64,000 nucleotides of DNA from Candidatus Zixiibacteriota bacterium (GTDB lineage: Bacteria > Desulfobacterota > Binatia > UBA9968). A program made the position numbers and the translations under genes. The stretch lies in assembly GCA_035574315.1 (NCBI GenBank), contig DATLYW010000048.1, positions 1-64,000 on the forward strand, in the 5' to 3' direction. Positions 35,205 through 44,830 of the stretch are shown here, one piece after another (position 1 is the stretch's first letter; every line of letters begins with the position of its first letter). Below the pieces are notes generated by a model. The model saw nothing but the letters and a program-made list of their open reading frames with translations, did not search any database and was not told where the DNA came from.

Positions 35205-35992
35205 GCGCCATTCTCGAAGCGACGGGCGGCGCGCTCGTCGCTTTCTCCGGCGGGGTCGACTCCACCTTCCTGCTGAAGGCTGCGTACCGGGCGCTGGGAG
35301 AACGGGCCGTCGCCCTCACAGCCGCTTCACCCGCCGTTCCCCCGGGCGAGCTGGAGGCTGCAAGCGCCTTTGCCGCCGCTCTGGGCTGCCGCCACGTCGT
35401 GGTGGAATCGCACGAGCTCGGTAATCCGGATTACGCGAAGAATCCCTCCAACCGCTGTTTTTTCTGCAAGGACGAGCTCTATCGGCTCTGCCGCGCGGAG
35501 GCGGAGCGGCTCGGTCTCGGCGTTGTGATCGACGGCACCAATCTCGACGACCTCAAGGACCACCGGCCGGGGCTGCAGGCGGCGCATCAGTGGAGGGTGC
35601 GCCATCCGCTCGTGGAGGCGGCGATGACCAAGGAGGACATCCGGCGCTATAGCCGTGCGCTCGGGCTCCCGACGTGGGACAAGCCTTCGAGCCCCTGCCT
35701 GTCATCGCGGTTCCCCTACGGCACGGAGATCAATCTCGAGCGGCTGCGAAGGGTGGCGGCCTGCGAGCTGTTCCTGAAAGAGCTCCGCTTCCGCGAATTC
35801 CGCGTCCGCTACCACGGGGATCTCGCGCGAATCGAGGTGGCCCAGGACGAGATCGAGCGGCTGTTCGAGAAGCGCACGCGCGACGCCGTCGTCGAGCGAT
35901 TCAAGGCGCTGGGGTTCAAGTACGTGAGCCTCGACCTCCAGGGCTATCGCTCCGGGAGCCTGAACGAGGTTCTGAGCCGTCCCACGCCTTAG
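35180..35992 (+). CDS. larE: ATP-dependent sacrificial sulfur transferase LarE
   Basis: A 270-residue PP-loop protein. In lactate racemase maturation, LarE adenylates the LarB product and donates sulfur from its own cysteine to make the nickel-pincer cofactor. The PP-loop SGGVDST is at 23-29, and the sulfur-donor Cys173 lies in PCLSSR, equivalent to Lactobacillus LarE Cys176. [10 protein letters not shown] (about 91-100) is also typical. No larB, larC or larA is nearby, as is common for stand-alone larE genes, so the target is open. The last 77 bases overlap ispD antisense. Confidence 0.92.
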
Positions 35993-36680
35993 GGCCAGGC
36001 CCGAGAAGAGCCTCGGCCACCGCCAGATCTTCGGGAAGCGTGATTTTGATATTCGACCGGTCGCCTTCAATGACGACCACGGGTTCTCCCATCCGTTCTA
36101 CCAGTACCGCGTCGTCGGTTCCCTGAAAGTCCTCGCTTAGGGCACGTCGGTGCCCCTCGAGGATCAGGCTGTACCGAAAAGCCTGCGGCGTCTGAACCTC
36201 CCGGAGCGCGTCGCGCTCCAGCGTCGACTGCACGCGGCCGTCCGGCGTCACGACCTTGATGGTGTCCCGGGCGGGAACCCCGGGAACGGCGGCGCCGTGG
36301 CGGTACGCCGCTTCGGCGCAGGCGTCGACCAGCGCCGGCGGGACCAGCGGCCGCGCGCCGTCGTGGATCAGGACGATGTCGCGGTCCGGGGGGATCCGTT
36401 CGAGGCCGCGCCGCACCGATTCCTGGCGTGTGCTGCCGCCTTCGGCCAGTGTCCAGCTCCGGCCCCCGATCGCTGGATCGGCCTGGAGCAACGCCCGGCA
36501 ACGCTCGATCCGCCCGGGAGCCACGACGACGACCACATCGGCGACGGTTCTCGCCGCGAAGATGCGGTCCAGCGTCCGCAGGAGAATCGGACGACCCGCC
36601 AGCAGCACGTAGGGCTTCGGCTCGCCGCAGCGCATGCGGCGGCCTTCGCCGGCGGCGACTACGATCGCGCTGGCGCGCAC
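35916..36680 (-). CDS. ispD: 2-C-methyl-D-erythritol 4-phosphate cytidylyltransferase
   Basis: The third enzyme of the MEP isoprenoid pathway, joining CTP and MEP. The 254 residues start RASAIVVAAGEGRRM with the nucleotidyl loop, then KPYVLLAGRPIL, GGSTRQESVRRGL, VLIHDGARPLV and DTIK, and QTPQAF. The frame allows a TTG at 36698, but that lies inside the carD terminator tail. GTG 36680, preceded by GGGGA at good spacing, is preferred. A Gly/Ser/Arg-rich tail reaches into the convergent larE gene. Confidence 0.93.
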   Translation of the reverse strand: MRASAIVVAAGEGRRMRCGEPKPYVLLAGRPILLRTLDRIFAARTVADVVVVVAPGRIERCRALLQADPAIGGRSWTLAEGGSTRQESVRRGLERIPPDRDIVLIHDGARPLVPPALVDACAEAAYRHGAAVPGVPARDTIKVVTPDGRVQSTLERDALREVQTPQAFRYSLILEGHRRALSEDFQGTDDAVLVERMGEPVVVIEGDRSNIKITLPEDLAVAEALLGPGPKAWDGSEPRSGSRSDSPGGRGSRT

Positions 36681-36690
36681 GGTGGTCCCC

Positions 36691-36726
36691 AGAAACAAAA
36701 GAGCCGAGAGTGCAGGCTCTCGGCTC
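36691..36726 (-). terminator. Rho-independent terminator after carD
   Basis: A perfect 10-bp stem, GAGCCGAGAG (36701-36710) and CTCTCGGCTC (36717-36726), has a six-base loop. On the minus strand it is followed directly by TTTTGTTTCT. It lies between the carD stop and ispD, whose start codon is just past the tail. Confidence 0.85.
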
Positions 36727-36752
36727 GAAAAAACAGCATGGCGGCAAGAAGG

Positions 36753-37235
36753 TCAGTGGGTGAAGATATGGCGAAGCTCCTCGAGAATCTTTTCTTCCGA
36801 GTGGGCGCGGGCGATCGAAAGCTCCTTGACCAGCAGGTTCTGGGCCGTATCGAGCATCTTCCTTTCGCCGAAGGAAAGCTCTTTATCGCCCTTGAGCACG
36901 AAGAGGTCGCGCAGCACTTTGGCGATTTCGAGGATCGAACCGGTTTTGATCTTTTCGGTGTATTCGCGATAGCGGCGATTCCAGGTCTGCTGGTCGGTGC
37001 CGACTTTCTTTTCCCTGAGGACCTTGTAGACCTTCGATACCATGGCCCGATTGATGACCTTCCGCAGGCCTACTGACTGGACGTTGTCGACGGGAATCAT
37101 GATCTTCATGTCGGTTTCGAGGATCCGCAGCATGTAAAACTTCTTCTCGGTCCCCGAAATGACGTGCGTGCGGATGGCCTCGATTTCGCCGACGCCATGG
37201 GCGGGATAAACAACCTTCTCGCCAACCTTGAACAT
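36753..37235 (-). CDS. CarD family transcriptional regulator
   Basis: A 160-residue RNA-polymerase-binding regulator of the CarD/CdnL group, which stabilises open promoter complexes, often at rRNA promoters. The N-terminal RNAP-interaction domain is MFKVGEKVVYPAHGVGEIEAI through IMIPVDNVQSVGLRKVI. The C-terminal DNA-binding helical domain has TWNRRYREYTEKIKTGSILEIAKVLRDLFVLKGDKELSFGERKMLDTAQNLLVKEL. ATG 37235 has a strong AGGAGG site; the frame runs upstream without family character. CarD next to IspD is common in Deltaproteobacteria. Confidence 0.95.
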   Translation of the reverse strand: MFKVGEKVVYPAHGVGEIEAIRTHVISGTEKKFYMLRILETDMKIMIPVDNVQSVGLRKVINRAMVSKVYKVLREKKVGTDQQTWNRRYREYTEKIKTGSILEIAKVLRDLFVLKGDKELSFGERKMLDTAQNLLVKELSIARAHSEEKILEELRHIFTH

Positions 37236-37575
37236 AAAAACCTCCTCGTGAGCGAACGCCTGTGCGCTTGATTCGGATTTCGGGGACAACGGAAACCGAC
37301 AGGTTGGATCGGCAGCAGTGCCGAATGGATGGGATGGAACGCCCGCGGACCGCCGTGCGATAACTGGATACGCCTCGTTGCCATTCGGTTGTTCATCCCG
37401 CCGGAAGCAGGCTCCAAGAAAACAGCGCTCAGCTGACTCGGACCGCGGGCTCTTAATCGAAATTTAATATACACCAGGGCCAGTCGCGGCGTCAAGCGCA
37501 GCCGAATTGTAAACCCAGAAGTTTCAACGATTTAGGGGGGAAATGTCGGAAAGCTCTGAGAGAGCCCTGCGCCGT
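37236..37575 (-). other. carD upstream region with structured leader, no gene
   Basis: These 340 bases hold no supported gene. They contain a candidate promoter (37466-37495) and a roughly 225-base untranslated leader. Two inverted repeats are interleaved: CCGAATGG (37321-37328) with CCATTCGG (37381-37388), and an 11-base pair with one mismatch (37341-37351 with 37440-37450). The order allows a pseudoknot or mutually exclusive folds. Confidence 0.5.
37466..37495 (-). promoter_or_regulatory. Candidate carD promoter
   Basis: On the minus strand TTGACG (37490-37495) is followed after 18 bases by TATATT (37466-37471) in an AT-rich patch. The predicted leader before carD is about 225 bases. Confidence 0.55.
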
Positions 37576-43399: not shown

Positions 43400-43960
43400 T
43401 CACAAGCTCCCGCCGCGCTCGAATCGCGACGCGACTTGGTCGAAGGCCTCCAGTATCCGGCGGGCGGGTGGGCGATCGGCCGGTTCGCGGCTTCGGTGGG
43501 CGAAGAGAACGTTTCCGGCCCGATCGAGGAGAAAGTCACCACCGCCTTGGAAGACGTCCTCGCTGCGCTCGAATCGGGGCAACTCCGCTTCCCGCCATCG
43601 CCGCCAGTAAAAGCCGAGCGTCGCCGGCGCGAGAAGCCTGAACCAGGAAAACCTCTTCAGCCCGAAGGCTCGATAGGCGTCTCGGCCCGGGTCCGAAAGC
43701 AGGCGGAACGGCCACTGCTGCTGCTCCCGGTAGTCGGCCAGCCGTGAGGGCGGGGCGAAGGAGACGACGACGACAGTAATCCCGCGCCGGTCGAACTCCT
43801 CCTTGAGATCGCGCACCTCCCCGAGGTGCTCCCGGCACGGAAGTCAGGCAAGATGTCTGAGAAAAATCAGGAGCAGGTAATCGCTAAAGCACTCGCTGAG
43901 CGAAACGGAACGGCCGCCCGGATCGATTAGCCTGAGTCGATCGAGATCGACCGATTGCAT
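43400..43960 (-). CDS. Probable selenoprotein, SelL-related thioredoxin-fold redox protein (in-frame TGA = Sec39)
   Basis: A 186-residue peroxiredoxin-like (AhpC-TSA_2) protein read through one in-frame TGA at 43844-43846. Before it is DPGGRSVSLSECFSDYLLLIFLRHLA; after it, LPCREHLGEVRDLKEEFDRRGITVVVVSFAPP, in the same frame. This places TGA at the first position of a redox CxxC-type motif (U-L-P-C), where Cys homologues read FLRHxxCxxCR. A 7-bp hairpin 15 bases after the TGA fits a bacterial SECIS. The rest (LLSDPGRDAYRAFGL, then FQGGGDFLLDRAGNVLFAHRS) completes the fold. ATG 43960 lacks a clear ribosome site. selA/B/C/D are not in the window. Confidence 0.82.
43813..43829 (-). promoter_or_regulatory. 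Candidate bacterial SECIS hairpin
   Basis: Read on the minus strand, GCACCTC (43829-43823) pairs perfectly with GAGGTGC (43819-43813) around a GGG loop. The stem begins 15 bases and the loop 22 bases after the in-frame TGA, within the spacing expected of SelB-binding bacterial SECIS elements, which also need a G at the start of the apical loop. Confidence 0.65.
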
Positions 43961-44183: not shown

Positions 44184-44495
44184 CTACCAGCGGTTCCGAC
44201 CGCCGCGCCGATCGCCGCCCCGGTCGCCTCCGAACCCGGAGCGCTTTTCGAGCGGACGAGCTTCGTTGACCGTCAGGCTCCTCCCCTCCAGATCGCTCCC
44301 GTTGAGCGCCTGGATCGCCCGTTGAGCCTCCTCGGCCGTGCTCATCTCGACGAAGCCGAAGCCTCGGGATCGGCCGGTGAACTTGTCGGTGATCACCCTT
44401 GCGGACTCCACGGTGCCGTGCGCCGAGAAAATTTCCTGCAGCTGCGCGTCCGTCGTCGAATACGGAAGGCCGCCGACGTAGATTTTAGTACCCAT
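44184..44495 (-). CDS. RRM-type RNA-binding protein
   Basis: A 103-residue glycine-rich RNA-binding protein. One RRM spans about 3-80, with RNP2 IYVGGL and RNP1 RGFGFVEM, followed by a short Gly/Arg tail (GFGGDRGGDRRGGRNRW). Such proteins in cyanobacteria and proteobacteria are often cold-induced RNA chaperones. ATG 44495 follows AGGAGGAG. It has its own long upstream region and probably forms a single-gene transcript. Confidence 0.95.
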   Translation of the reverse strand: MGTKIYVGGLPYSTTDAQLQEIFSAHGTVESARVITDKFTGRSRGFGFVEMSTAEEAQRAIQALNGSDLEGRSLTVNEARPLEKRSGFGGDRGGDRRGGRNRW

Positions 44496-44830
44496 GTTCT
44501 CCTCCTGTGAGGGAAAAACCGTTAGTGTCTTTGACCCTGTGAACCAGATCCCGCCTTGAGCAGAACATGGAATACAAACACGCTCTGGTCGGATAATGCG
44601 CGTAGGAGCGAATCGCAAGGAAAGACGGACAAGCCTTCAACTCCGCCAATATTCAACCGTTCAGAAGGCTCCATACTGAATGGCAATCGAAGCTTACTTG
44701 TTTTCCCCGCCGATTACAAGGGATAACCGCAGGCGCGCTGGACCCCCCGCTATTGCACCCGCAGGGCCTTTTATATTAAGGGTGCGGTTGGCCTGAAGCC
44801 AATGGCCACTAACACTAAGGAGGATGACTC
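44496..44830. other. Divergent intergenic region, no gene
   Basis: These 335 bases separate the divergent RRM and dienelactone hydrolase genes. The stretch is AT-richer than its surroundings and must hold both promoters. TTTTATATTAA (44770-44780) upstream of the hydrolase gene is a -10 candidate without a well-spaced -35. TTCAAC repeat-like units occur at 44636 and 44653. Confidence 0.45.

Follow-up and report, generated by a model that had tools for sequence, protein, structure and literature searches.

A predicted SelL-related selenoprotein gene with a U-L-P-C motif and a candidate SECIS hairpin in a Binatia genome

The locus and its encoded protein

The window, by which we mean the whole stretch of 64,000 nucleotides analysed here, carries on its minus strand an open reading frame that runs from ATG 43960-43958 to a terminal TGA at 43402-43400 and whose sole internal in-frame stop is the TGA at 43846-43844. 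The features discussed below are as follows.

43400..43960, minus strand: predicted selenoprotein gene for a SelL-related, peroxiredoxin-like redox protein, 186 codons plus stop (translation, NF040769, Pfam, AlphaFold)
43844..43846, minus strand: in-frame TGA, predicted selenocysteine 39, the opening residue of U-L-P-C (TGA in 80 of 80 relatives; selA, selB, selC and selD in the genome)
43835..43837, minus strand: TGC, Cys42, the Cys of UxxC and its second redox residue, resolving or partner (sequence; alignment column)
43813..43829, minus strand: candidate bacterial SECIS hairpin GCACCUC-GGG-GAGGUGC, 17 nt with a 7-bp stem and a 3-nt loop, -10.1 kcal/mol
44184..44510, minus strand: upstream neighbour, an RRM RNA-binding protein (Pfam RRM_1, 6e-25), present also beside relatives L084 and L086

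On the minus strand from 43960 to 43400 the gene reads ATG CAA TCG ... CTT GCC TGA CTT CCG TGC CGG ... AGC TTG TGA, and with TGA taken as selenocysteine (Sec, U) it yields a 186-residue thioredoxin-fold protein containing the peptide ...LLLIFLRHLAULPCREHLGEV..., with the motif FLRHLAULPCREHL. The sequence-only reading had described two same-phase segments split by this TGA, which holds, although its coordinates let them overlap by one base and the upstream segment really ends at 43847. Apart from TGA 43846-43844 there is no further stop or frameshift, and the protein is conserved on both sides of it. Inspection of the sequence upstream of ATG 43960 revealed no clear Shine-Dalgarno element. With the standard code, automatic gene calling would yield a 38-residue fragment, or a start after the active site, and lose the catalytic residue in either case, whereas a correct annotation would give the lineage one more redox selenoenzyme.

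Over residues 11-172 the joined protein matches the NCBIfam family NF040769, 'SelL-related redox protein', with 164.3 bits (E 2e-48) against a curated whole-protein cut-off of 120 bits, which strongly supports the SelL-related assignment proposed from the sequence alone. Pfam AhpC-TSA_2 (PF13911, 2e-18) and AhpC-TSA (PF00578, 9e-16) also match, the latter spanning the TGA. An AlphaFold model built on 30 sequences of the window protein and its relatives has a mean pLDDT of 91.8; in it the first active-site helix, residues 40-51, starts directly after Sec39. In the 30-protein alignment the Cys42 column is invariant. By sequence, the closest solved structure is that of the human CxxC thioredoxin-fold enzyme prostamide/prostaglandin F synthase (7e-7), which is also the best fold match in the PDB (E 3.5e-11, TM 0.71-0.80); PrxQ/BCP peroxiredoxins are among the best fold matches as well.

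Between 44184 and 45887 lie genes for a small MCTMIVHQAKI protein, a dienelactone-hydrolase-like protein and the RRM RNA-binding protein, in that order, and then comes the selenoprotein gene. The same order is found on the metagenome-assembled contigs L084 and L086, the two nearest relatives examined; the RRM neighbour is syntenic but stands outside the mechanism proposed below. Among the other TGA-interrupted frames of the window with Sec-like motifs, none appeared by eye to form a coherent family on both sides of the stop; 35919-37463, for example, resembles a CarD-like gene with an IspD-like gene after it.

Conservation of the in-frame TGA and the Sec-decoding machinery

A single-protein scan of the named genome collection returned no relatives, but a query built from the alignment, with patterns that left out the Sec residue, retrieved 80. 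All 80 have TGA at the aligned position, which is far beyond chance. They come from Planctomycetota, Acidobacteriota, Thermodesulfobacteriota/Deltaproteobacteria, Chloroflexota, Myxococcota, Pseudomonadota, Hydrogenedentota and Bacteroidota, mostly as metagenome-assembled genomes (MAGs). In a tree of the 81 proteins the closest companions of the window protein are three Deltaproteobacteria MAGs (100/95), with Gemmataceae joining next (99/90). A sample of 297 genomes of the same phylum contributed four relatives at 34-39% identity, each with HRHLGULPC and TGA, and among the six matches to NF040769 above its cut-off in this phylum, five have TGA at the site and one has Cys. G087, a borderline member of the family, has no in-frame stop and reads GCPIC at the site, and distant GCP(I/V/L)C proteins such as L023, L025 and L030 likewise carry Cys in place of Sec. 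Across these homologues the in-frame TGA aligns to Sec or to Cys, and the alignment of relatives strongly bears out the earlier suggestion that U occupies the position of the first Cys of a redox motif. Sec seems nearly fixed in the family (80 of 80 sampled), which makes it suitable for the study of Sec retention as well as of SECIS evolution under a conserved protein sequence.

The genome that contains the window (4.26 Mb in 53 contigs, 98.6% complete) was searched family by family for the Sec-decoding machinery. Profile searches identified selA (596.6 bits, cut-off 268), selB (399.5 bits, cut-off 242), with its SelB winged-helix domains confirmed, and selD (384.6 bits, cut-off 125), which are neighbours at C33:71937-76376. 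The tRNA-Sec at C33:54730 scores 77 bits against a gathering threshold of 47, and a second program, ARAGORN, calls it tRNA-SeC with anticodon TCA. The genome therefore holds selA, selB, selC and selD together; the sequence-only reading had taken a lack of selB or tRNA-Sec as telling against it, and both are present. One gene of the cluster has a TGA of its own:

C33:71937-72863 (L048), minus strand: selD with an in-frame TGA (VKAAGUAAKLGP), adjoining selB and selA

This TGA falls at what we take to be the position where selenophosphate synthetases have their catalytic Sec or Cys, and selD is probably itself a selenoprotein. Most of the sampled phylum, 273 of the 297 genomes, scores over the tRNA-Sec cut-off, too large a share to allow a correlation of tRNA-Sec presence or absence with the U-form; E-value alone fails to split Sec-users from non-users because ordinary tRNAs match below the cut-off. 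The window's genome encodes another predicted AhpC/TSA-type selenoprotein, with the motif RGYWUPKC, at C37:94733-95038 on the minus strand (L051, TGA at L051:1437-1435).

The SECIS hairpin and its form in different subclades

The bacterial SECIS model, as given in PMC13188914, has an apical loop of 3-9 nt with G within the first two positions, an upper stem of 4-16 bp, 16-37 nt between UGA and loop, and a minimum free energy of -7.5 kcal/mol or lower. The window hairpin satisfies every one of these, with a GGG loop, a 7-bp stem, a 21-nt spacer between UGA and the start of the loop, and -10.1 kcal/mol. Taken by itself it is weak, and the comparative evidence carries the case: hairpins that meet the model follow 10% of all TGA trinucleotides of the window at -7.5 kcal/mol or below and 4.4% at -10. 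Short segments of the window fold no better than their shuffles (z -0.3 to -0.9), and an Rfam search at the site gave sub-threshold noise and no known RNA family. Comparative tests were made because single-sequence folding of such short segments is not significant alone.

Averaged over the 81 sequences, the folding energy of 39-nt segments reaches -13.0 to -13.5 kcal/mol at the TGA against a profile mean of -9.3, the strongest minimum in the profile, and regains the background by +24 nt. In 72 relatives the hairpin has an AGUU loop; 98.8% of its cells are paired and 105 are double-changed, compared with 33 in shuffles, and no slid version exceeds 66% paired. The hairpin was also assessed in an 8-bp version. 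The loop and its closing pairs, CAG TTG C, are all but invariant in this alignment, even though CAA and other Leu codons would be synonymous. The paired and double-changed cells amount to strong compensatory covariation in the hairpin across the relatives. In the subclade of the window (nine sequences) the inner 6-bp stem is paired in 9/9; of the stem codons, CTC, GAG and GTG never vary and CAC is kept in 8/9, the exception, CAU, retaining a U-G pair, whereas the Gly codon of the loop varies between GGG, GGC and GGT. Synonymous positions in this subclade are frozen in the stem and free in the loop.

The two forms of the hairpin divide the family. The window and L084-L091 have a hairpin of 6-7 bp whose GGN loop follows a 21-nt spacer, whereas nearly all other relatives (L092-L163) have the AGUU loop and a 25-nt spacer, which leaves the GGN loop 4 nt nearer to the UGA. 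The selenoprotein gene on C37 has a GC-AGUU-GC hairpin of 5 bp that lies 16 nt after its TGA and, at -6.5 kcal/mol, falls short of the -7.5 model limit. We give about even odds to the reading that the SECIS was rebuilt within this one selenoprotein family, with AGUU at 25 nt elsewhere, GGN at 21 nt in the window subclade, and the AGUU type kept at the C37 gene. The direction of change, from AGUU to GGN, is suggested because AGUU also occurs in the Bellilinea sister group. With GGN in the window gene and an apparent AGUU at C37 in one genome, its SelB would therefore have to read both. If true, this would be a natural case in which the SECIS turns over and the Sec residue remains unchanged; the difference is a modest novelty, of which we found no published description in the available parts of the literature.

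A model for Sec insertion and its relation to known systems

We propose a model for the gene that most reasonably fits these observations, in which UGA 43846-43844 is almost certainly decoded as Sec through SelB and the hairpin to give a functional thioredoxin-fold redox protein. As the ribosome arrives at this UGA, SelB carrying Sec-tRNA(Sec) would bind the hairpin at 43829-43813 just downstream, and selenocysteine would be inserted in place of termination, as the comparative evidence and the presence of the machinery indicate. The product would be a 186-residue protein of the AhpC/TSA_2 (PRXL2/SelL-like) branch, in which Sec39, located where the first active-site helix begins, is paired with Cys42. 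The Sec39 selenolate may then attack a disulfide or a peroxide, Cys42 may resolve the intermediate through a Sec-Cys selenenylsulfide, and a cellular thiol system would reduce the enzyme again. The protein is thus a putative thiol:disulfide oxidoreductase or peroxide-reducing enzyme, with the direction of its reaction suggested by fold and motif.

The same frame could in principle be a pseudogene or a sequencing error, in which a TGC or TGT Cys codon was mutated or misread as TGA; nonsense pseudogenes typically show just such a lone in-frame stop, and G087 is a borderline family member in the phylum with GCPIC and no stop. We consider this very improbable, as the recurrence of TGA in 80 of 80 relatives from independent genomes, together with a covarying hairpin, argues decisively against it, and the otherwise intact frame, the conservation of both flanks and the constraint that the RNA hairpin places on silent sites at the TGA point the same way. 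Less probable still, to the point of being negligible, is that UGA specifies tryptophan or another standard residue throughout the genome, as in a code-4-like system, or is passed by leaky readthrough. The frame is open under any such code, but the matches to selA and selB (443 and 579 profile positions) in this genome run without an in-frame TGA, the selenoprotein gene itself ends in TGA, and the internal TGA takes the place of the catalytic Cys and has a SECIS downstream, in a genome with a tRNA-Sec of anticodon TCA. The reading of this UGA as selenocysteine, first made from the sequence, is strongly supported by the machinery, the conserved TGA and the covarying hairpin.

Accepting Sec at position 39, the enzyme might still be a peroxidase rather than a thiol:disulfide oxidoreductase, either with Cys42 peroxidatic and Sec39 as its partner or with Sec39 attacking peroxide, and PrxQ/BCP and AhpE structures among the best fold matches and an AhpC-TSA match that spans the site favour this. 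We regard a peroxidase as a serious but less probable possibility, since the best relative by both sequence and fold is the PRXL2-type prostamide/prostaglandin F synthase with its CxxC pair, and Sec-containing peroxiredoxins have the motif TxxU, while PMC13188914 lists UxxC under 'Prx-like thiol:disulfide oxidoreductase'.

Cys44 and Cys47 of PRXL2B, the human prostamide/prostaglandin F synthase (PDB 9us9/9usa), align with U39 and C42 of the window protein, and a PDB entry of a C44S/C47S mutant names this Cys pair; PRXL2B differs in having Cys for Sec, about 20% identity and a eukaryotic lipid substrate. From NF040769 there is no difference at the level of the family, within which the window protein is divergent (nearest fetched relatives at most 55% identity). 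The gene had been put forward as undescribed, which does not stand: NF040769 covers the protein, and Prx-like UxxC/UxxU selenoproteins are tabulated in PMC13188914 and were on record by 2006 at the latest, with PMC1794560 naming Geobacter, Syntrophus and Desulfotalea among their sources. Compared by description in the two papers, they have in common with the window protein the Pfam match (PF00578) and the UxxC motif, and the relatives fetched here include Geobacter, Syntrophus and Desulfocapsa. The gene is a further member of an already catalogued family.

Selenoprotein L (SelL/SELENOL) of aquatic animals has a related Prx-like fold, with Sec at the first position of its motif. SelL has two Sec residues (UxxU), whereas the window protein has one, in U39-L-P-C42 with TGC as the second codon, and UxxC differs also from the TxxU of canonical Sec-Prx; by its motif we class the window protein as SelL-related and not as SelL proper. 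A Planctomycetaceae relative (L123:2085-2132) reads ULPU, with two TGA codons three apart in the UxxU arrangement of SelL. More distant proteins of the same phylum as the window (L024, L026-L029, L035) have RHFGU(M/I/V/L)F with TGA, and most of this group lack a Cys at +3, reading FAR or FAK, and thus have Sec without a CxxC-type partner.
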